Part shown: piece after piece, positions 20,064-64,000 of the stretch | Layout: each line of letters starts with the position of its first letter | Position numbering within the stretch: the first letter of the stretch is position 1 | Notes under the pieces: model-generated | Told to the model about the DNA's origin: nothing | What the model saw: only the letters and a program-made list of their open reading frames with translations | Databases searched by the model: none | Translations under genes and position numbers: made by a program | Origin: Mesorhizobium sp. B2-8-5 | Lineage (GTDB): Bacteria > Pseudomonadota > Alphaproteobacteria > Rhizobiales > Rhizobiaceae | Direction: 5' to 3' | Assembly (NCBI RefSeq): GCF_006440675.2 | Contig: NZ_CP083951.1 | Coordinates: forward strand, 5,861,501 to 5,925,500 | Length of the DNA stretch: 64,000 bases

Positions 20064-20093
20064 AAAAAGGCCGGGCGCGAAAGCGGCCCGGCC
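20064..20093 (-). terminator. Terminator hairpin between hpaH and the oxygenase gene
   Basis: GGCCGGGC (20069-20076) pairs with GCCCGGCC (20086-20093) around a 9-nt loop. An A-run at 20064-20068 becomes a T-run after the stem when read on the minus strand, so it fits an intrinsic terminator for the minus-strand oxygenase gene ending at 20258. It may also stop hpa transcription as a simple stem. Confidence 0.6.
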
Positions 20094-20257
20094 AAGCATG
20101 AAGGTCATAACCTTCAGAGGGGAACATCGCCCGGCGCAATGGGAGGAAAACACCGAGCGATGACCCTTATTTGGGGCCTGAGCGGCGGATTTTCCACGAA
20201 CGGAATTCCAAAAAAGATCGAAATTGCGAAAAAAACTCGCTCGACTGCGCGAAATCT

Positions 20258-48083: not shown

Positions 48084-49799
48084 CTATGTCTCGGCAAGCT
48101 CCTCGGCGGCTTCTTGGACGCCGTGCGCAGCCGCTCGCTCCAGCCAAATGCGGGCGGCGGCGGAGTCATGCTCGTCGGCAATGCCCGTGGAGAGATAGCG
48201 GCCAAGCATGAGTTGGGCATGCCCATGGCCTCTTTCAGCGGCGGCTTCGAACCATTTCTGCGCAGCTTTGTGGTCGAGTGACAGGCCTTGCCCGGCCTCG
48301 TAAAGTGCCCCGATCGCGAACATCGCCCCAGCATGGCCTGTAGCCGCGGCTTGCTTGAAAAGGTGTGCGGCGGTCACGAAAGAGCGTTCCCCGCCACGGC
48401 CACTGTAAAGCATTTCGGCGAGAGCCACCTGCGCGTCCACTATGCCTGCCTTGGCAGCCCGCTCAAACCAGATGCGGGCCTGCCTCTGGTCAGCGACCAT
48501 GCCTCGTCCATCCTGAAGCATGCGGGCATACATGTATTGCGCCTCGGCCACGCCTTCCGCTGCGCGCGCCATCCAATGCGCAGCCCGCTCCTGGTCCTTA
48601 CCCACACCAATACCTTCTGCGAAACAGAGACCAAGATTGAACGCCGCAACCAGATCACCCGATGACGCGGTTGCCCCAAACCATCCAGCGACGCTGATAC
48701 CATCATCCGGTTCGCCTGCTCCTTCAAGAACAAGGTTCGCGAGATCAACCTGGGATTCACGATTGCCTCTGGCTGCGGCGGCACGCAGCAATCGCGTTCC
48801 TTCTTCGGCGTCCTGAGCTACGCCATTGCCCGAGAGATAGAGCGAAGCCAAGGCGCGGGCAGCCGGCTGGTGGCCCCCATCTGCCGCCCGCCGATACCAC
48901 GTCGCGGCCTCTGCATAGTCTCGCAGACCTCCCCCCGAGTACAGTTCGCCAACGCGATAGGCGGCGTCGACATTTCCCGCCAGCGCGGCGCGACGCATCC
49001 AGGCCTCGCCGGCGACGGCGTCCCGATCCGCCAAGCCACCCTCGATCAGCGCAAGCCCCAGCCGAAACTGGGCAGATGCGAGTCCCCGTTCAGCGGCATC
49101 CTGATAGAGCTTCTGAGCTGCCTCGAGATCGACGGGCACGCCCATTCCGTGCTCGGTGAGGATGGCAAGCAGGTAGATGGCCGTCGGCAGGCCGGCATCC
49201 GCCGCGCGCCGAACCTCTGCGGCAATCCTGCTTCTTTGGTCCGGTTGCCTCAGCCGGACCAAGGAAAGGGCAAGGCCGAGGCATCCTTCCGGGCAGCCGG
49301 CCGCCGCGGACTTCTCGTACCAGCCATGCGCGGCATCGAGATCGCGCATCGCGTCCGGGCCTTTGCTTAGGATGTAGCCTAGCAGGGCCTGCCCTGTTGC
49401 GGAGCCGGACTCGGCGGCTTTTCGCGCGAGGTCGAGCGCTGCCGCGAAGTCTGGCTCTCGCAAGGAATTTCGATCGAACAAACCTTCCGAACCGGCGTCG
49501 GCTTCCTGTCCCGCAACCCCCGCTACGCACAATGCGGCAAGCAGCGCCTGCGCGTCTGGACTGCCGCGATCGGCTGCTCGCCGCAGCCAACGTGCCCCTT
49601 CCGAGTGGCTGGGTGGCACGCCAGTGCCTTCCAAATAGCAGCGGCCGACCCGGTATTGCGCTTCCACGATGCCCGCGCGTGCCGCTATACCCATCAGCGC
49701 AAAGGATTCCGCAGGCTTCCCGCTGTCGGAAAGTTGGAGCGCCCGGCGAAAAGCCAGGGCGGGATGGATGCGTCCAGTCAGGCGGTCGAGCATAGCCAT
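48084..49799 (-). CDS. Sel1-like repeat protein
   Basis: A 571-aa protein made almost entirely of Sel1-type (SLR) helical repeats of about 36 residues, at least twelve of them. Examples are EAQYRVGRCYLEGTGVPPSH, ASAQFRLGLALIEGG and AGAMFAIGALYEAGQGLSLD. No signal peptide or transmembrane helix is seen. Sel1 proteins are scaffolds for protein-protein contact. The start at 49799 (MAMLDRLTGR) lies 1 bp after the HlyD stop, with GGGAG seven bases upstream, so it belongs to the secretion operon. It may help assemble or regulate secretion of the collagen-like protein; this is inference from position. Confidence 0.87.
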   Translation of the reverse strand: MAMLDRLTGRIHPALAFRRALQLSDSGKPAESFALMGIAARAGIVEAQYRVGRCYLEGTGVPPSHSEGARWLRRAADRGSPDAQALLAALCVAGVAGQEADAGSEGLFDRNSLREPDFAAALDLARKAAESGSATGQALLGYILSKGPDAMRDLDAAHGWYEKSAAAGCPEGCLGLALSLVRLRQPDQRSRIAAEVRRAADAGLPTAIYLLAILTEHGMGVPVDLEAAQKLYQDAAERGLASAQFRLGLALIEGGLADRDAVAGEAWMRRAALAGNVDAAYRVGELYSGGGLRDYAEAATWYRRAADGGHQPAARALASLYLSGNGVAQDAEEGTRLLRAAAARGNRESQVDLANLVLEGAGEPDDGISVAGWFGATASSGDLVAAFNLGLCFAEGIGVGKDQERAAHWMARAAEGVAEAQYMYARMLQDGRGMVADQRQARIWFERAAKAGIVDAQVALAEMLYSGRGGERSFVTAAHLFKQAAATGHAGAMFAIGALYEAGQGLSLDHKAAQKWFEAAAERGHGHAQLMLGRYLSTGIADEHDSAAARIWLERAAAHGVQEAAEELAET

Positions 49800-49800
49800 C

Positions 49801-51219
49801 CTATGGCTCCCGCATCGCTTCCTGTCCGATCGGCAACATGGCGCCAAGCATGTATTTGAGCACTGTGCGGCGACCGACCTTGACGTCAGCGGTGACAGGC
49901 ATGCCGGGGCTGATCGCGAAACCGGCGGGCAACCCATGAAGAGCGACATCGTCGATGGATATCTGGGTGCGATAGAACTGGTCGGCATCCGAAGGAAGCA
50001 TGGCCAGTGAACTGTTTGGATCGCGCGCCTGTTCTCTGGCCGAAAACGAATCCGGGCTGACCGCTCGAACCGTGCCATGCGCCAGGCCATACTGTGAATA
50101 GGCGAAGGTGTCGAACTTGATAGCCACGGGATCGCCTACATGAACGAAGCCACTGCTACGGCCGATAATATTGGTCTCAACCTCGAGCACTGCATCGGCG
50201 GGAACCAGCGTGATGAAGCGTTCGCCAGACTGCAAGACGGAGCCGACGGAGACCTTGGCTACTGATTGAACCGTCGCGTCGGCCTCGCTCCTTAGTTCCA
50301 CCAGTTGCTTGCGAAGCTTCGCCTTGTTTAGAAGCTCGCGAGCATCCGACATGCGTGAATTGGCTTCCGAAAGGCTCTGCGAGACCTCGGCGCGCCAGCT
50401 CTGAATGTAACCGTCTCGGTCGGCCGCGGCAGCGGCCTGCTGGCGCTTGGCGGCTTCTGTCGTCTGCTCGGCGTTGCTCAGCGAACGCGACATTTCCGCC
50501 GAATTGTCCTCAGCTAAAAGCGTGTTGAGACGGCTTCCAACCTGCCTTTCTTCGAGTTGCTGACGCATCTTTTCGATCGACGCCGCAACTGCGAGCCGCT
50601 GCCGATACCCCTCGGCGTCGGACTGCGAGCGCGAGATGACGGAACTCAGTTCGTCACGCTGCCGGTCGAAGCTTTCAAGCTTTGCGTCGTAGACCGCCTT
50701 GCGACGTTCGTAGATCGAGGCCTGCAGCGTCCAGCTTGGGTCCAGTCCATCGTAGTTGAAGGGCTTGTCATCGACCTCCGCCTTCAGGCGCGCTACTTCG
50801 GCTTCAAGCGTCGTGACCTGGGTCGCCAGCGCCGTGAGATCGGCCGAGGCGAAGGTGGCATCGAGCCTGGCCAGCAGTTGGCCGGCCTTCACACGCTGTC
50901 CTTCGCGCACCTCGATCGACCGAACAATCGCCGTCTCCAGTGGCTGGACGATGATGTTGGGCGATTGCGAGACCACGAGCCCCCTCGTCGTGACGACCTG
51001 ATCGACCGGTATCAGCGCGGCAAGCGCGATCAGCGCAACAACCATGCTGGTGATGATCCACACGACGCTGCGTGCCACCCACGGAATTGGCGCATTGGCG
51101 ACCGCCGTCGACGGCCACTGGAATTCGAGAATGGCAGGAACCGTCGGATCGTTGGCCTCTCGCCGGCGCCGGGGAACTGGAAGGGTGGAATGGGTGGTGC
51201 TGCTCATGGCCGGTCTCAC
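49801..51219 (-). CDS. Type I secretion membrane-fusion (HlyD-family) protein
   Basis: A 472-aa periplasmic adaptor. One N-terminal transmembrane helix (about residues 49-70, WIITSMVVALIALAALIPVD) is followed by a biotinyl-lipoyl half (VVSQSPNIIVQPLETAIVRS). A long coiled-coil hairpin spans about residues 110-320. The second lipoyl half and beta-barrel follow with TLVPADAVLEVETNIIGRSS. It bridges the inner-membrane ABC exporter to a TolC-type outer-membrane channel, which is not encoded here. The GTG start at 51219 overlaps the ABC gene stop (GTGA); ATG 51207 is the alternative. Confidence 0.88.
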   Translation of the reverse strand: MRPAMSSTTHSTLPVPRRRREANDPTVPAILEFQWPSTAVANAPIPWVARSVVWIITSMVVALIALAALIPVDQVVTTRGLVVSQSPNIIVQPLETAIVRSIEVREGQRVKAGQLLARLDATFASADLTALATQVTTLEAEVARLKAEVDDKPFNYDGLDPSWTLQASIYERRKAVYDAKLESFDRQRDELSSVISRSQSDAEGYRQRLAVAASIEKMRQQLEERQVGSRLNTLLAEDNSAEMSRSLSNAEQTTEAAKRQQAAAAADRDGYIQSWRAEVSQSLSEANSRMSDARELLNKAKLRKQLVELRSEADATVQSVAKVSVGSVLQSGERFITLVPADAVLEVETNIIGRSSGFVHVGDPVAIKFDTFAYSQYGLAHGTVRAVSPDSFSAREQARDPNSSLAMLPSDADQFYRTQISIDDVALHGLPAGFAISPGMPVTADVKVGRRTVLKYMLGAMLPIGQEAMREP

Positions 51220-53522
51220 ACAGGGCGAGGCGGCACGGCCGCCAGACGGCTATGGCGGCCGTCAAGATGCCGGTTCTGCTGGAGCCAGAGCTGGCGGTAG
51301 ACACCGCACCGCTCCAGGAGCACCGAGTGAGGGGCGACATCGAGAACCTTACCCTGGTCCATGACCAGGATCTGGTCGCATTCAGTGAGCGAGGCGAGCC
51401 GGTGCGAAACGATGATCATGGTACGCCCGCTGGCGATACGAATGAGATTGGCGCTGACCACCGCTTCGCTCTCCGGATCGAGCGCGCTCGTCGCTTCGTC
51501 GAGTATGAGGATGGTCGGGTCGTGAATGAGCGCGCGGGCGATTGCCAGCCGCTGCTTCTGACCGCCGGAGAGATTGGGCGAACCTTCCTCGATATAGGTG
51601 TCGTAGCCGTTTGGCATGCGTTCGATGAACTCGGCAGCACCTGCCAAGTGGGCGGCACGCATGGCGTCGGAAAGCGTCAAGCCAGGACGTCCCGCGATGA
51701 TGTTGTCCCTGATCGAGCCGCGGAACAAGAAATTGTCTTGAAGGACGACACCCAGACCCTGGCGAAGATGACGAAGGTTGATTTCCTTGAGATCGACTCC
51801 ATCCAGCTTGAGGAACCCGCTATAGTCGCGATTGATACCCTGCAACAGGCGCGCGATCGTCGATTTTCCTGATCCGCTGCGTCCGACGACCCCGAACATC
51901 GTGCCGGCCGGGACATCGAAGCTGACCCTGTCGAGTGCCGGTGTCTTGGTGCCGATGTAACTGAAGGTCAGATCGCTGAACTTGATCTCGCCGACGAGCT
52001 TCGGCCGCAAGCCGGCGGAATTGGAGCTGCTTTCCAACGGGCGGTTGAGAACCCCAGCTGCCTCGCCAATCGCCGCGCCGACCTCCTCATAATCCTCGAC
52101 CAGCCGCGCTAGACCGACCAGCGGCTGCGCGACGCGCTGCGCGATCATCATGAAGGCAAACAGGCTGCCGACCATATAGCCCGACCGGTCGTTCATCGCG
52201 AGATAGGCGCCGATCAGCATGGTGCCGAGGACCATCGCGCGCTCGATCGGCGTGACGAGAGTTTGCGGCCAGTTGGCCAGTTGCCCGAAGGCAAGACGCG
52301 CCTTGCCCGCGTCGGCCACCCGTTCGTCCCACAGCGCCTTGCGTTGCGGCTCCAGCCCGAGCGCCTTGACGGTCTTGATGCCGACGACAGTCTCGCCGAG
52401 CGCGGCCGCCTTCCAGGTCTCGGCGTCGACCACGTTCTGATAGCGTCGGCGCAGCGGCGCAAGGAAGGCGAAGATAATCGCCATGATCACGACCGCGCAG
52501 GCGAGCACCATCCAGGCGAGCGTGGCGTTGATGTAGAACATGACCGGGATCAGGACGCAGAGCGTGATCAGATCCAGGAATGTGCTGAGGAGCTTTCCGG
52601 TCAGGAACTCGCGGATGCGATAGACTTGGGCGAGATGGTACATCGTCTCGCCAGCCGGGTGCCGCTCGAAATAGTCGAGCGGCAGGCGCAACAACCTGCT
52701 GAAGACATGCAGATTGAGCTTGGTGTCCAGGCGCGCACCGACGACATTAATGATCAGTCGTCGAGCGTGACCGAGCAGCGTCTCGTAAAGGAAGACGACG
52801 GCGATGACCGCTGAGAGAAGCACCAGAGTGGGGATACTGCTGAACTGCAGCACCTTGTTGACGACCGTCATGACGATGAGGGGCGGCAGAATCGCTAGAA
52901 TACTCAGCGTGAACGAAGCGATGCCAATGTCCCGCAGCGGCCGGCTCTCGAGCCGCACCAAATCGATAAGCCAGCCGAAGGTGAAGGGCGCATCCGCCGC
53001 GATATAAGACCTCGCTGCCCGCAAAAGGACGGCCTCGCCCGACCATACCTGCAGCAGGCGGAGCTCATCGATGGCAACAGCTTCCGCGTCATCCGGCGCA
53101 TCGACGCTCTTGAGGAAAACGACATTGCGTTCGGCGCTAGCCCCGGTAAGGAGGCCGGCGCCGCCATCGGTGAAAAGCAAGACGATCGGCCCTGCGTGTT
53201 CGAAGCGCAACAGATGCGACCAGCGGATACGTAGCGCGCGCGACCACATGCCGGCGTTCTGTGCCCACTGGGAGAGATCGGAAGCACTTGGAACCGGACC
53301 GGCGATTGCCGCCCTGAATTCGTTCGGATCGAGATCGACTCCGTGATAGCGGGCGACCTGCAGCATCGCCTTGATGCGCGGCCCTGTCCGATCGAACGCC
53401 GCGGGGCCGCCAGGAACCCATTCCGCTGCGCCCTCGCTCCGACCTTTGCCGGTCATGTCCACTTCGACATCGTCACGGATCGGGACAGGCAGGACTTCGG
53501 AGTTTCGAGGCACGCTCACCAT
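51216..53522 (-). CDS. Type I secretion ABC exporter with C39-like domain
   Basis: A 768-aa ABC exporter of the HlyB type. The N-terminal part (about residues 45-170) resembles a C39 peptidase domain, but the catalytic Cys is absent (IKAMLQVARYHG where an active protease has Cys). It should therefore be a substrate-binding C39-like domain. Membrane helices begin near residue 200. The ATPase domain has Walker A GRSGSGKSTIARL, signature NLSGGQKQRLAIARA, Walker B ILILDEATSALD and switch His in VSHRLAS. The start at 53522 follows GGGGAG. It is downstream of the collagen-like gene on the same strand and overlaps the HlyD gene, so the collagen-like protein is the likely substrate. Confidence 0.9.
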   Translation of the reverse strand: MVSVPRNSEVLPVPIRDDVEVDMTGKGRSEGAAEWVPGGPAAFDRTGPRIKAMLQVARYHGVDLDPNEFRAAIAGPVPSASDLSQWAQNAGMWSRALRIRWSHLLRFEHAGPIVLLFTDGGAGLLTGASAERNVVFLKSVDAPDDAEAVAIDELRLLQVWSGEAVLLRAARSYIAADAPFTFGWLIDLVRLESRPLRDIGIASFTLSILAILPPLIVMTVVNKVLQFSSIPTLVLLSAVIAVVFLYETLLGHARRLIINVVGARLDTKLNLHVFSRLLRLPLDYFERHPAGETMYHLAQVYRIREFLTGKLLSTFLDLITLCVLIPVMFYINATLAWMVLACAVVIMAIIFAFLAPLRRRYQNVVDAETWKAAALGETVVGIKTVKALGLEPQRKALWDERVADAGKARLAFGQLANWPQTLVTPIERAMVLGTMLIGAYLAMNDRSGYMVGSLFAFMMIAQRVAQPLVGLARLVEDYEEVGAAIGEAAGVLNRPLESSSNSAGLRPKLVGEIKFSDLTFSYIGTKTPALDRVSFDVPAGTMFGVVGRSGSGKSTIARLLQGINRDYSGFLKLDGVDLKEINLRHLRQGLGVVLQDNFLFRGSIRDNIIAGRPGLTLSDAMRAAHLAGAAEFIERMPNGYDTYIEEGSPNLSGGQKQRLAIARALIHDPTILILDEATSALDPESEAVVSANLIRIASGRTMIIVSHRLASLTECDQILVMDQGKVLDVAPHSVLLERCGVYRQLWLQQNRHLDGRHSRLAAVPPRPV

Positions 53523-53710
53523 AAGCTCCCCTTGCGGTCTAAAAGCGAGGGTTCGGGGGTGTTCCCCGCACACCGCCCCAATCCGGAAAGTCGGCAACAT
53601 CCATCATAGACCGAACCGCCCCGCGGTGCGAGCTCGTTGCCGGCGTCCAAGACGTGGCTACGCGGACCCCGCGTTTCCGCAAGGCCCGCGCGCATTGTTT
53701 TGACCAACAC
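53523..53710 (-). other. Spacer between collagen-like gene and exporter genes
   Basis: 188 bp with GC-rich stem-forming stretches, for example GGTTCGGGGGTGTTCCCCGC near 53551. Such stems may partly end transcription after the long collagen-like mRNA, lowering exporter expression, or protect its 3' end. No gene is seen. Confidence 0.4.
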
Positions 53711-59332
<5,622 letters not shown>

Positions 59333-59400
59333 TCAATTCAAGGGAAAACCGCTCAACCGGCTTGACCGGCGAGCGGCACGAACCAGACATTTGGCAGCGG

Positions 59401-59715
59401 TCATCGCCCCGCCGCCCCGACGGCACCGTCGGGGCGTTGAATTGTGGGGGTCTCCACGCGAAGGAAGCTGGCAGCCTGGAAAGCCCCGCCTTCGTCGAAC
59501 GTGCCGATCGCAAGCGAGCCGGCCGTGCTCGGGACCTTGACGGTGAGGGCTACAGCGAGGCTGCGCTGCACGGCCTTGGGAAGGATGACCTGGCCGACGA
59601 TCGTGTTCTTGGCCGAGTCCAGAATGAAATAGGTGACGTTCTCGGTCCCGTCGCCGATAGGCAAAGCGCCTCGAACGGTGACTTCCATGACCGCAAAGCC
59701 CGCAGTGAAGCTCAT
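59401..59715 (-). CDS. Small protein like the pre-collagen domain
   Basis: A 104-aa protein of a family I do not recognise. Its core NVTYFILDSAKN, IVGQVILP and AVALTVKVP aligns by eye with residues 189-229 of the collagen-like protein ([29 protein letters not shown]). It therefore appears to be a stand-alone version of the domain that precedes the collagen repeats. No signal peptide or membrane helix. A strong ribosome site (GAGGAGG) precedes the ATG at 59715. It is the first gene of the minus-strand operon, 92 bp before the collagen-like gene. Confidence 0.75.
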   Translation of the reverse strand: MSFTAGFAVMEVTVRGALPIGDGTENVTYFILDSAKNTIVGQVILPKAVQRSLAVALTVKVPSTAGSLAIGTFDEGGAFQAASFLRVETPTIQRPDGAVGAAGR

Positions 59716-60553
59716 AGTGTCCTCCTCGATCCGCTGCGGCCAACGCCGCCGTTATTGTCGTTTCTCAGCTTCAGGTTTCACTCGGTGCCGAGCTTCCGCA
59801 GCCGGGCGGGTGAAGCCACGACGGCGAGAGCCGAAAATTGTCCAATCCCAGGAATGCGCCGCCCGAGATACACAGTCGGGCGGACGTCGTTACCAGTCGC
59901 AAGGCGACTACCGCAGGTGGCAAGAGGAGCTGGACACAGGCCGAGGCCGAAGGCCACGTCAACGCGGCGCCGTCTGGTGGGTGATGTTACACGGACCACT
60001 GCCAACTCCATCACGCGGGTCGCGATTGTTCACGACTTGCAAGGAGCCGGCTACTTGCGAGGGACCATCATTGGGAGATCGGTAGCCTAGATCACGGATT
60101 CAGGACCAATCGGCGAAACGTTCGCCCACCACCACATACACCGCGCCCTCACGGGTGAGTGGCGTTCCTCCCGGATACTCTCCTGGCTTCGCAGACAACC
60201 GCGGACCGGCGCTCTTTCGCCAAATCCGCAGCTACCCTCCATTGCATTAGATATTAGTAAATTCGAAATTTCTAAACTTGTAAATGGTTTGGTTTACAAT
60301 TTATTAATTCAGAACCGCTGGGTCACCCATCAGAGACTGTCATCGAAATGACATGCCAGGGCGTGAACACTTTAAAAATCCAAGAGTTAGCTAAGGGCCA
60401 TTTCAATCGCGAAAATTGAGAGCCTTCATCAAAATGGCTTAGGCTGCGGCGGCTGTGAGACGAGCGTGAGAGACGATCGAATCCTCATCAAAAAGGATTG
60501 CTGTGCGACATGACACTACGATGCAAATATGGCCGCCTCAACGAGGGTCCGGC
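59716..60553. other. 838-bp divergent control region of the collagen locus
   Basis: There is no supportable gene here. Bases 59716-60230 have normal GC content and random short open frames. Bases about 60240-60320 are strongly AT-rich and include the inverted repeat at 60279-60298, so promoters for the minus-strand operon and the glycosyltransferase gene are probably here. The glycosyltransferase ribosome site (AGGG) is at 60544-60547. Confidence 0.5.
60279..60298. promoter_or_regulatory. Perfect inverted repeat, candidate operator
   Basis: TGTAAA (60279-60284), TGGTTTGG, TTTACA (60293-60298). It is a 6-bp perfect inverted repeat with an 8-bp spacer in the AT-rich core between the divergent collagen operon and glycosyltransferase gene. 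It could let one regulator control both. Confidence 0.5.
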
Positions 60554-63343
60554 GTGAGCACCATCGGCCTGTGCATGATCGTCAAGAACGAGGCGAAGGT
60601 CATCCTGCAATGCCTCGCCAGCGCGCTTCCTCTTGTCGACTATGTGCTCGTCGTCGACACTGGGTCCACCGACGGCACACAAGACCTGATCCGAGGCTTT
60701 CTCGCGCAAAACGATGTCAAGGGAGCAGTTATCGACGAGCCGTGGCGGGACTTCGCCTACAACCGCAGCTTCGCCCTCGAGCGACTGCGCGAGATCGAGA
60801 GCGTCGACTATGCGATGATCATCGACGCGGACGACATGCTGATCTGCGATCGCGACTTCGAGCCAGCCTTGTTCAAGTCCCGGATGGACAAAGATCTCTA
60901 CGATGTCGAGGTACTGCATGGAAATATCGCGTTCTACCGCCCGCAGATCTGCAGCAACCGGCTGGCCTTTTCCTTCAAGGGTGTGTTGCACGAATATCTG
61001 GAAGGCCCCCCCGGCCCCATCTCAAGGCAGAACGCCGAGGGTTTTCGCATCGCAACGGGGCGCGGCGGAGCGCGCAGCCAGAACCCGCGAAAATACCAGG
61101 ACGACGCGGCGGTGCTGGAGAACGTGCTCGCAACCGAAACCGACCCGTTCCTGATATCGCGCTACACCTTCTATCTGGCGCAGAGTTACAGGGATTTTGG
61201 CGAGCGCGAGAAGGCGCTCGAACAGTATTTGAAGCGAGCTGAACTGGGTTTCTGGAACGAGGAGGTCTATGTAAGCCTGCTCGAGGCCGGGAACCTGATG
61301 GCGGCGCTTGCCCGGCCCTTCGAAGAAGTGGTCGCGGTCTATGAGCGCGCGACCGCGACAGTGCCCACGCGCGTGGAGGCGCTGCACGCAGCGAGCCTCT
61401 ACTGCCGCAACCAGGGGCGCAACGCGGAAGGGCTGGACTATGCGCGTCGCGGTGTGGGCCTCACCGAGCCGGCGGGTCTGTTCGTCCAGCCTTGGGTCTA
61501 CGACTACGGACTGCTCGACGAATTGTCAGTCAACGCATACTGGGCGGGCGCCCATCGGGAATCGCTCGATGCCTGCCTGAAACTGCTGGCCTCCGACAAA
61601 TTGCCGGCGGACATGCTGAAGCGGGTTGTGGCCAATGCCCGTTTCGCCGCGGACAAACTCGAGGTCCGCGAGCCGCCGGTATTGGGAAGCCTCGGCGCAG
61701 AGAGCCTTGTCGAGCAGCACGCGCTTGTTGCGCAGCGCCCGTTACGCTCGCGGCTCAAAGGCACGCCGCGCGTCCTTGTCGCGATATTGGCAAAGCAGAA
61801 GGAGCCCGCGCTGCCGCTCTACCTGACTTGCATCGAAGCGCTCGACTATCCTAAAGAATCGATCGTCCTCTACATCCGAACAAACAACAACACTGATAGG
61901 ACCGAGCACATATTGCGCGAATGGCTGGAACGCGTCGGCCACCTCTATTCCGCGGTCGAGATCGACACGTCGGACGTGTCCGACCGGGTCGAGCAGTTTC
62001 GCGAGCACGAATGGAACGAGACGCGTTTCAAGGTGCTCGGCCGAATCCGCAACATCAGCCTGCGGAAAACCCTCGAGCACAATTGCGAATTCTATTTCGT
62101 CGTCGACGTCGACAATTTCGTGCGACCGGCCACGCTGCGGGAACTCGTCGCGCTCGACGTGCCTATCGTTGCGCCGCTGCTACGCTCCATCGCACCCGGT
62201 CAGTATTATTCGAACTACCACGCCGAGGTCGACGCGAGCGGATATTATCAGCACTGCGATCAGTATCTCTGGGTGCTCAACCGCCATGTCCGCGGCATCC
62301 TTGAAATACCGCTCGTGCATTGCACCTACCTTGTCCGCGCCGACGTGCTGACCGAGCTGACATATGACGACGGCACCACGCGATACGAGTACGTCATCTT
62401 TGCCGACAGCGCCCGCAAGGCCGGGATCGTTCAATACATCGATAACCGGCAGGTCTACGGCTACATCACCTTCGGCGATGGCGAATATCATGTAAGTGAT
62501 GGAATCGAGCGCGCAGGCGAGCTTTTGCGCAGCGCGGGTGACGTCCCGGTATTGGCGGAGGTCGCTGCCGTCGCGTCGGCGCCGGCCGAGCCACGGGATT
62601 CGCCGAAAATTCACCTGATAAACCTCGACCGGAGCGTCGACCGCTGGAACAAGTATCAGAGCGACAATTGGCATCTGACGCAGAATACGCTTCGGGTATC
62701 GGCCGCCGACGGCGCCTCCCTGGACCGGAATGCGCTCATAGAGGAAGGCCTGATCACCAGCGATTGCGCGTATCCGGCAGGAACGCTCGGGTGTGCTCTA
62801 TCCCATATCAACCTGTGGAAGCTGGCGGTTTCGGAGAGCAAGCCGATAACCGTCTTTGAAGACGACGTCCGTGCATCGTTTCGGTTCCTGGAGGAATCGG
62901 CCGATCTCATGGCTCGAGCTCCGAGGGATTGGGATATCATCCAGTGGGGCTATGTATTTGACCCATTGTTCGCCTGGCTGGATTTCGGCTTCTCCAAAGC
63001 AAAGCTGGAATTCTACGACCTCCGAAATAGAAACGGGACCTCGTTTCAGGCTGAGAAATTCTCGAGATCGCTGGTCGGGCTGGTACATTCGTTTGGAACG
63101 CAGGCCTACACAGTCTCGCCGTCAGGTGCACGCAAACTCCTTCAAAAGTGCCTTCCTCTGCAACGCCGGCTTATCCCGTTTCCTGGAACGGGCGTCGTGA
63201 TCGAGGACACGGGCATCGATTGCGCCATGTGCGGGGCGTACGGCTCGATGCAAGCTTTCCTTTGCATTGCGCCACTCGTCATCCCAGACGACGGGCAATC
63301 GTCAGAGCGGATGTCAATGGATCGGCAGCAAAGCTCGGGCTAA
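60554..63343 (+). CDS. Three-domain glycosyltransferase, procollagen-galactosyltransferase-like
   Basis: A 929-aa protein with three putative catalytic domains. Residues 1-170: GT2 domain, CMIVKNEAKVIL, VVDTGSTDGT and the DAD metal motif at 91-93. About 180-390: TPR-like helices. About 400-650: a second glycosyltransferase with VLVAILAKQKEPALPLYL, EALDYPKESIVLYI, FVVDVDNFV, PIVAPLLRS and VHCTYLV, matching in order what I remember of the N-terminal half of animal COLGALT. About 683-900: GT25 domain, HLINLDRSVDRW, TLGCALSHINLW and ITVFEDDV. No signal peptide, so it acts in the cytoplasm. The GTG at 60554 after AGGG is chosen; the frame is open from GTG 60503. It is divergent from the collagen-like operon, so I infer glycosylation of Thr in its repeats. 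Confidence 0.85.
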   Translation: MSTIGLCMIVKNEAKVILQCLASALPLVDYVLVVDTGSTDGTQDLIRGFLAQNDVKGAVIDEPWRDFAYNRSFALERLREIESVDYAMIIDADDMLICDRDFEPALFKSRMDKDLYDVEVLHGNIAFYRPQICSNRLAFSFKGVLHEYLEGPPGPISRQNAEGFRIATGRGGARSQNPRKYQDDAAVLENVLATETDPFLISRYTFYLAQSYRDFGEREKALEQYLKRAELGFWNEEVYVSLLEAGNLMAALARPFEEVVAVYERATATVPTRVEALHAASLYCRNQGRNAEGLDYARRGVGLTEPAGLFVQPWVYDYGLLDELSVNAYWAGAHRESLDACLKLLASDKLPADMLKRVVANARFAADKLEVREPPVLGSLGAESLVEQHALVAQRPLRSRLKGTPRVLVAILAKQKEPALPLYLTCIEALDYPKESIVLYIRTNNNTDRTEHILREWLERVGHLYSAVEIDTSDVSDRVEQFREHEWNETRFKVLGRIRNISLRKTLEHNCEFYFVVDVDNFVRPATLRELVALDVPIVAPLLRSIAPGQYYSNYHAEVDASGYYQHCDQYLWVLNRHVRGILEIPLVHCTYLVRADVLTELTYDDGTTRYEYVIFADSARKAGIVQYIDNRQVYGYITFGDGEYHVSDGIERAGELLRSAGDVPVLAEVAAVASAPAEPRDSPKIHLINLDRSVDRWNKYQSDNWHLTQNTLRVSAADGASLDRNALIEEGLITSDCAYPAGTLGCALSHINLWKLAVSESKPITVFEDDVRASFRFLEESADLMARAPRDWDIIQWGYVFDPLFAWLDFGFSKAKLEFYDLRNRNGTSFQAEKFSRSLVGLVHSFGTQAYTVSPSGARKLLQKCLPLQRRLIPFPGTGVVIEDTGIDCAMCGAYGSMQAFLCIAPLVIPDDGQSSERMSMDRQQSSG

Positions 63344-63380
63344 GCGCCCCAGCTTTCACGGAGTCGCAGAGCCCGCGACT

Positions 63381-63983
63381 TCACACGCGGCTATCGCCAC
63401 GCATTTGGCGCCCGTAATCACGTTCAGCCTCGGTCAGTTGCCGTTTGCGCAGCACCACGCGCATCTCGTCTACCGCCCGCGGGCTGCGCAAGATCTCGTC
63501 CTCCAAGACACCTCGCGCCGCGAGCGCATCCCCGATCGAACTATAGCCGAAGGTTTGCTCCACCAACTCGAACCTGGATTCGGTCCATCCGAGATACCAG
63601 TACCATTCGCAATAGTAGAGCCAACTCCGCTCGTTGAAGGCGTGTACGTGGGTAGGATCCTGCCAGGCACCGTATGACAGGTCGTATGGCACCACAATAT
63701 TGAACAGCCCTCCATCCGCCAGCAAAGTCAGGCAGTTCGTCATAGCCGTCACAAGATCCGCAACGTGCTCGAGCACGTGCGAGGCCGTTACGCTGGCAAA
63801 TAGTCCCCGGCCCATCCGAACCGGTCCGAAGCGCTCGGACATAAATTCACGCTCGAACAGGCCAGGATCCGATATGTCGGCCACGATGTCGGGATGCCAT
63901 CGGTTGCTGATATCGATATTCAGCACCCTTGGATCGCGTATCTTTCCCCGACCGAGTACAACGTCGCCGGGTAGGTTCGGCAA
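63381..63983 (-). CDS. SAM-dependent methyltransferase, possibly 5'-partial
   Basis: 200 residues of a class I methyltransferase: VLNIDISNRWHPDIVADISD (motif I end to II), VTASHVLEHVAD (the SHVLEH signature) and LADGGLFNIVVPYD. This is the type-11 group often found in polysaccharide or glycan loci. The TTG at 63983 has GGAG four bases upstream and could be the start, but the frame is open to the right edge and the usual glycine-rich motif I is short, so the gene may begin outside the window. It converges on the glycosyltransferase gene with a 37-bp gap. Confidence 0.75.
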   Translation of the reverse strand: MPNLPGDVVLGRGKIRDPRVLNIDISNRWHPDIVADISDPGLFEREFMSERFGPVRMGRGLFASVTASHVLEHVADLVTAMTNCLTLLADGGLFNIVVPYDLSYGAWQDPTHVHAFNERSWLYYCEWYWYLGWTESRFELVEQTFGYSSIGDALAARGVLEDEILRSPRAVDEMRVVLRKRQLTEAERDYGRQMRGDSRV

Positions 63984-64000
63984 ATCGCTCCAGGCAAGCG

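Follow-up and report, generated by a model that had tools for sequence, protein, structure and literature searches.

A candidate locus in Mesorhizobium for a threonine-rich collagen-like protein with a type I exporter and a multidomain glycosyltransferase

Collagen-like proteins of bacteria have been described in rather different settings. BclA of the Bacillus exosporium is glycosylated (available part of PMC8968730), and the (Gly-Ala-Ser)n collagen region of Burkholderia Bucl8 reportedly adopts a triple-helical form (available part of PMC8277102). The locus described here resembles BclA in that its collagen may be glycosylated as well; however, BclA is a spore protein, and the collagen of Bucl8 belongs to an outer-membrane efflux channel and is not an exported product. 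BclA is not known to have a type I exporter and is modified by other glycosyltransferases. GmaR and SunS, cytoplasmic enzymes that glycosylate proteins or peptides, share a GT2 module with the glycosyltransferase of our locus; their targets are flagellin and a small peptide, respectively. Our enzyme has TPR-like repeats behind this module and, unlike GmaR and SunS, is fused to COLGALT-like domains. In its available part, PMC7591256 describes FlmG of Caulobacter as a cytoplasmic, modular TPR and glycosyltransferase enzyme. Here the likeness is one of mechanism, TPRs combined with a glycosyltransferase for exported proteins, and not of membership; FlmG carries a GT-B type domain behind its TPRs and acts on flagellin. 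Human COLGALT1 (GLT25D1) combines a GalT-N with a GT25-type GalT-C domain; its residues D166/D168 and D461/D463 are needed for activity (available part of PMC3244457), and in its GalT-C domain, which is the catalytic one, the EDD motif E435-D437 forms the metal site (available part of PMC13382579). Among the matches listed in the open-access literature, no published description of a type I exported, glycosylated collagen was found.

We analyzed a 64,000-nucleotide stretch, hereafter the window, of a Mesorhizobium genome of 6.46 Mb on one contig. A first-pass annotation had proposed that it holds a complete system for a secreted, glycosylated collagen, composed of a giant Gly-X-Thr protein, an apparent type I exporter (ABC/HlyD), a putative Sel1 scaffold protein, a small protein and a divergent COLGALT-like glycosyltransferase. 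Pfam and NCBIfam searches located all of these genes, grouped together. Read from right to left, the minus strand encodes a 104-aa protein (the small gene), the 1,865-aa collagen, the ABC transporter, the HlyD protein and the Sel1-repeat protein; the gene of the multidomain glycosyltransferase occupies the plus strand and diverges from the small gene. Genome-wide, all matches to collagen, DUF4347 and GT25 fall within the collagen gene and the glycosyltransferase gene. To call the system complete was too strong, as the outer-membrane channel must be encoded elsewhere in the genome and the gene set extends past 63343. No TolC-type gene was found within the window; TIGR01844 (TolC-type) has three matches in the genome, all outside the window and one of them above the cut-off (355 bits).

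Beyond the glycosyltransferase follows a glycosyltransferase-like and methyltransferase protein (527 aa; 63381..64000, running on to 64964, minus strand), which is kept beside the glycosyltransferase in two related loci (L043 and L044). The sequence past the window (L039:1-4419) holds the rest of this gene, a TylF O-methyltransferase, likewise near the enzyme in both of these loci, and an F5/8-type C and FkbM protein. Together these neighbors hint at a methylated glycan. G+C content is 0.54-0.63 in the glycosyltransferase region (window 60001-64000), compared with 0.61-0.70 elsewhere in the window, which would fit a piece that was acquired separately. Apart from this locus, the window contains an Alphaproteobacterial ar15 small RNA (20066-20161, minus strand, 57 bits).

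The collagen-like protein (1,865 aa; 53711..59308, minus strand) matches PF01391 with 592 bits and PF14252 with 135 bits. Its collagen domain (54149..58396, minus strand) consists of 472 uninterrupted Gly-X-Y triplets and was rightly called a giant Gly-X-Thr repeat, with Thr at Y in 468 triplets and Ala (302) or Ser (134) at most X places. Lys occupies none and Pro two of the 944 X and Y places. In the Gly and Thr codons of the repeat, positions one and two are nearly invariant (0 to 0.08 bits) and third positions are free (1.68 bits), so that, together with the unbroken run of triplets, the collagen repeat is not due to chance. Thr is the likely acceptor for a sugar in this protein. Because its triplets lack Lys, the hydroxylysine chemistry of animals cannot apply there, and we rejected animal-type hydroxylysine galactosylation for the window's collagen, a rejection that does not cover its Lys-bearing relatives.

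An N-terminal Sec signal is not evident. By a crude hydrophobicity measure over the first 45 aa, the best 12-residue stretch of the window's collagen scored 0.86, versus 1.7-2.7 in eight of 12 further collagen ORFs from the order. The protein contains no RTX repeats (0 GGxGxD motifs), and no C-terminal secretion signal motif was recognized in it, though its C-terminal region (53711..54148, minus strand), a candidate type I secretion signal, is conserved with 42-92% identity in those cassette collagens of the genus that blastp matched. We class the protein as collagen-like and linked to the type I exporter; it would be exported, glycosylated and assembled into a triple helix.

Two domains precede the triplets. 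The DUF4347 domain (collagen residues 7-170; 58799..59290, minus strand; PF14252) contains His61-Gly62 and Cys104, which are invariant in all 10 Mesorhizobium DUF4347 sequences and correspond to the His-Gly and Cys pair of clan CD, a putative catalytic pair. A structure model, good only over residues ~1-130 (mean pLDDT of the whole model 75), matched the fold of Tce1 (PDB 9qpe), whereas a search of the DUF4347 profile against solved structures by sequence gave nothing convincing (its two hits had E values of 0.84 and 0.96). The domain has a probable clan-CD (caspase-like) fold. Unlike in PA0256, a stand-alone type VI secretion system effector with DUF4347, the domain here forms the N terminus of a collagen. 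The pre-collagen domain that follows (residues 171-286; 58451..58798, minus strand) is predicted with modest confidence to be mostly beta strands. In profile comparison, the 104-aa protein (59401..59715, minus strand) matched this domain, in line with the resemblance noted earlier (hhalign probability 90%, E 1.5e-6, from thin alignments). The same domain as in the 104-aa protein is also found fused behind a DUF4347 domain (L044:7074-8225). In the two distant collagens that were read to their start (L034 and L051), blastp found no DUF4347 match, and hhalign detected no homology between the pre-collagen domain and the domain at the N terminus of distant collagens (probabilities 0.5% and 1.6%, alignments of 3 to 7 sequences).

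Beside the collagen gene, the predicted exporter genes are in place, namely those of a HlyD-family type I secretion adaptor (49801..51219, minus strand; TIGR01843, 438 bits, cut-off 209) and of a type I secretion ABC transporter (51216..53600, minus strand; PF00664 and PF00005). For the ABC protein, TIGR01846 is the best family with 518 bits (E 4.9e-155), a score under the model's own cut-off of 726. Many of its relatives begin near residue 27 (position 53522), and its closest relatives align from residue 2. Orthologs with 82-91% identity occur in 50 further genomes of the genus. The Sel1-repeat protein (~571 aa; 48084..49799, minus strand) has 11 stretches of PF08238. Its reading frame had been drawn to 50090, into the HlyD gene; this is too long, and we set the start near 49799, since cassette relatives (577-618 aa) align from residue about 98.

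The multidomain glycosyltransferase (60503..63343, plus strand; 946 aa as listed, with GT2 and GT25 Pfam matches) probably starts with GTG at 60554, where the first Met of its relatives falls. Its N-terminal part contains a GT2 catalytic module (60572..60853, plus strand; PF00535/PF13704, DADD at residues 108-111) and TPR-like repeats near residues 225-320. The nearest solved relatives of this GT2-TPR module are GmaR (E 7.6e-10), SunS (E 1.5e-4) and designed TPRs. Residues 421-816 are homologous to human COLGALT1, procollagen galactosyltransferase 1 (E 1.1e-43). This region comprises a domain homologous to COLGALT1 GalT-N (COLGALT-N; 61763..62467, plus strand; profile match, DxD at 535-537) and a GT25 (GalT-C like) domain (62606..63148, plus strand; PF01755 with 62 bits, EDD at 786-788, DWD at 809-811). 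A GalT-N-only profile retrieved COLGALT1 (E 8e-40), LH3 residues 272-493 (8e-19) and R699 (8e-9); for the GT25 part alone, COLGALT1 is the best solved relative, weakly matched at E 3.8e-8 over a 58-residue stretch. Both DxD motifs and the EDD motif of COLGALT1 are kept, their counterparts being D535/D537, D809/D811 (D809-W-D811) and E786-D-D788. A model of the whole enzyme was poor (pLDDT 47) and was not used.

In contrast to COLGALT1, the bacterial enzyme carries the extra N-terminal GT2-TPR module, nowhere contains RMQV and neighbors a collagen that, with 0 Lys in 944 places, lacks the hydroxylysine acceptor of the COLGALT family. As RMQV and the Lys acceptor are missing, we do not file the enzyme as COLGALT; as a homolog, it may exert a related action on threonine. 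The earlier designation as a collagen-type glycosyltransferase refers to homology, as COLGALT acts on hydroxylysine and the triplets here are Lys-free. Within the genus the COLGALT-type enzyme is accessory, occurring in 15 of 146 genomes.

Among these 146 genomes, 51 have an exporter ortholog, and 14 of the 15 with COLGALT-N are among them (Fisher p 1.2e-6). The fifteenth COLGALT-N genome (G762, locus L046) has a partial exporter match over residues 6-351 with a stop within the stretch. COLGALT-N and exporter lie 6.1-19.3 kb apart in all 11 genomes with both on one contig and on different contigs in three. Of the 51 genomes with the exporter, 37 lack the COLGALT-type enzyme, which counts against reading the locus as one for collagen production; as an obligatory part of the cassette, the enzyme was rejected. 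We fetched 20 exporter loci from these 37 genomes and also read G136 and G229, so that 22 of the 37 were covered. All 20 fetched loci have a collagen rich in Thr next to the exporter (Thr in 73-100% of Y places, counted per ORF). Eight of them end before the position divergent from the small gene. Where it is readable past the small gene, 11 of 12 loci hold or begin another GT2-TPR enzyme, 30-32% identical to the GT2-TPR module of the window; in L107, another collagen and not a glycosyltransferase comes after the small gene, which again speaks against the production reading. At full length, these other GT2-TPR enzymes measure 1,261-1,316 aa, with PF04488 as second module in the three scanned with Pfam (L033, L035, L097). 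G136 and G229 display the same pattern. Since exporter loci without COLGALT-N keep the collagen and mostly another GT2-TPR enzyme, collagen and exporter make up the core, usually accompanied by a GT2-TPR enzyme, and the COLGALT-type module is one of two or more second modules that can replace each other. The first-pass annotation had suggested a check for co-occurrence in related genomes, and here the collagen and exporter core passes (20 of 20 loci and two other families), whereas the COLGALT-type enzyme is not universal.

A search for named loci matched 11, from which four weak or partial ones (L047-L050) were set aside and seven (L040-L046) kept. Collagen was seen in five of the seven; the sequence of L046 starts only within the small gene, and that of L045 only inside the enzyme gene. 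The exporter matched at E 1e-100 in six of the seven genomes and not in that of L045, whose 6.3 kb contig contains no collagen. This contig, from a Hyphomicrobiales metagenome-assembled genome, encodes a GT2-COLGALT-N enzyme and then GT25 as a separate 243-aa ORF (L045:3-2763), which are fused in Mesorhizobium.

Composition also sets the cassette collagens apart. In seven of them besides the window's, Thr makes up 92-99% of Y residues, versus 2-52% in the 12 other collagen ORFs, a set chosen by us from the matches listed for the order that includes one neighbor of a COLGALT-N enzyme (L031). Most of these 12 contain Pro or Lys, and eight have a hydrophobic N terminus; a strong stretch of this kind is absent in eight of eight cassette collagens, the window's included. 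Exceptions in composition are L034 with 20 Pro in 85 triplets, L051 with 5 Lys in 198 and the cassette collagen piece L029 with 7 Lys in 30. Some paralogs within the genus also have Lys in the Y place, with a maximum of 23% in one ORF of L105. Given Lys in L029, L105 and other relatives, its absence is thus no rule of the system.

In the order, 15 of 297 genomes were matched, eight of them by the GT25 half only and therefore left out. All of the seven with COLGALT-N have collagen, versus 120 of 297 overall (p 0.0016), but they fall in four genera (three in one, two in another) and so are not independent. Across the class, the COLGALT-N profile found only the window's own genome among 385; just four other genomes of the order are listed for this sample, so there is no contradiction with the seven of 297. 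In G139 and G030 from one genus and in G004 from another family, the genes for collagen, ABC, HlyD, Sel1 and glycosyltransferase follow one another in the same sequence. Between these distant cassettes in two families and ours, identity is 42-53% for ABC, HlyD and Sel1 and 60-70% for COLGALT-N. G190, of the same genus as G139 and G030, has the same gene order up to the ABC gene, where its contig stops. The enzymes of the distant families keep GalT-N only, and the combination of GalT-N with GalT-C is confined to the Mesorhizobium form; the absence of GT25, the catalytic part in human COLGALT1, argues against the production reading. So does G073, in which a collagen that runs to the contig end, an exporter and Sel1 are present, while the stretches covered hold no COLGALT-N enzyme. 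In L030 (G068) and L031 (G135-C34), a collagen stands beside COLGALT-N with no exporter nearby (Y = Thr 49% and 37%, respectively; 8 Lys in 53 triplets in L030). The hydrophobic N terminus of the L031 collagen (L031:1-1686) and the other triplet composition in L031 and L030:12793-13635 suggest another export route for these two. L032 (G135-C39) has COLGALT-N but lacks both collagen and exporter in its surroundings. Loci L030 to L032 likewise count against the production reading. The enzyme is also found in four Mesorhizobium plasmid records. The one that we opened (NZ_CP088148.1, Mesorhizobium ciceri) contains the full cassette, annotated as unconnected parts, near sugar-transferase and mannose-1-phosphate genes.

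We consider it probable, if far from assured, that the locus serves collagen production with glycosylation followed by type I export. The scheme that we propose draws on gene content, homology, motif conservation, linkage, the lack of an evident signal peptide and the Lys-free, Thr-rich triplets, from which we infer each of its biochemical steps. The collagen chain, lacking a Sec signal, would be synthesized in the cytoplasm. The GT2-TPR module could then bind the chain and transfer a first sugar onto Thr (or Ser), as GmaR- or SunS-type enzymes do on export-bound proteins. The COLGALT-like part might add a further sugar, with GalT-N handling the substrate and GT25/GalT-C catalyzing, and the neighboring O-methyltransferases may cap it. 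The ABC/HlyD exporter would secrete the chain via a C-terminal signal together with a TolC channel encoded elsewhere. Outside, the pre-collagen domain could trimerize chains into a long fiber, and the caspase-like DUF4347 domain might process or release the N terminus. Sugar on Thr can stabilize Gly-X-Thr triple helices, although the triple helix of (Gly-Ala-Ser)n in Bucl8 speaks against a strict need for it. A broader idea, which we put forward tentatively and judge rather unlikely, is a bacterial collagen pathway unlike that of animals, in which cytoplasmic Thr glycosylation by exchangeable GT2-TPR enzymes, one version with a relative of the animal collagen galactosyltransferase, replaces Pro and Lys hydroxylation and is combined with type I export and built-in, caspase-like propeptide processing.

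Alternatively, the type I system may export the collagen, with the glycosyltransferase and the methyltransferases making a surface polysaccharide as mere neighbors within an island for surface structures. The families of the neighboring methyltransferase and glycosyltransferase genes also serve polysaccharides, and the Pfam label of GT25 itself reads LPS biosynthesis. The sugar genes near the M. ciceri copy, the change of enzyme type between genomes, the stretches of G073 without any such enzyme and the solitary COLGALT-N of L032 would all be accommodated. However, COLGALT-N accompanies the exporter in 14 of 15 genomes of the genus and recurs in two other families with the gene order preserved, a GT2-TPR enzyme takes the same position in 11 of 12 readable loci, and this module resembles protein glycosyltransferases. 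We thus regard a polysaccharide function as doubtful, though of more weight than the two explanations that follow.

The Gly-X-Thr stretch could also be a glycosylated rod, mucin-like or polyglycine-II-like, with no collagen triple helix. Polyglycine-II bundles, too, are built on Gly-X-Y repeats, and a domain with Pro at only two of its X and Y places would suit a rod. Yet Gly recurs strictly at every third residue through all 472 triplets, and the (Gly-Ala-Ser)n repeat of Bucl8 is reported as a triple helix in the available part of PMC8277102, which makes the rod improbable to us. Finally, the exporter might handle another protein, with the collagen leaving by a different route or staying inside. 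The missing RTX motifs and the failure to recognize a C-terminal signal motif would agree with this; but the collagen gene lies next to the exporter genes in all 20 loci fetched, on the plasmid and in two other families, and an N-terminal signal peptide is not evident. We hold this last explanation to be very improbable.

If the production reading is correct, a bacterial collagen would come with its export route and a modifying enzyme in one cassette, also on plasmids. The cassette would then provide a simple setting in which to ask how Thr-linked sugars affect a nearly proline-free triple helix, and a candidate route to glycosylated collagen made in a bacterium. COLGALT-type domains beside collagens in bacteria furthermore bear on the origin of animal collagen glycosylation.

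The enzyme as a query had no match in phage records. Relatives of its GalT-N domain were found in 35 viral contigs (L112-L146) as stand-alone proteins of 231-302 aa, 43-51% identical to the rhizobial domain. A collagen match occurs in 10 of these 35 records and in 8 of the 12 of at least 20 kb; the viral collagen ORFs that were read have 65-85% Thr at Y. When the TylF protein of this locus was used to fetch 35 contigs as a control set, collagen was present in 12 of the 35 and in 12 of 28 at 20 kb or more. A link between COLGALT-N and collagen in phages was hence not established, the control set having collagen about equally often (Fisher p 0.15). Within the genus, six loci (L041, L042, L099, L103, L104 and L105) have extra DUF4347-collagen paralogs in tandem next to the exporter; some of them lack a collagen stretch, and the largest ORF among these measures 3,291 aa (L104).
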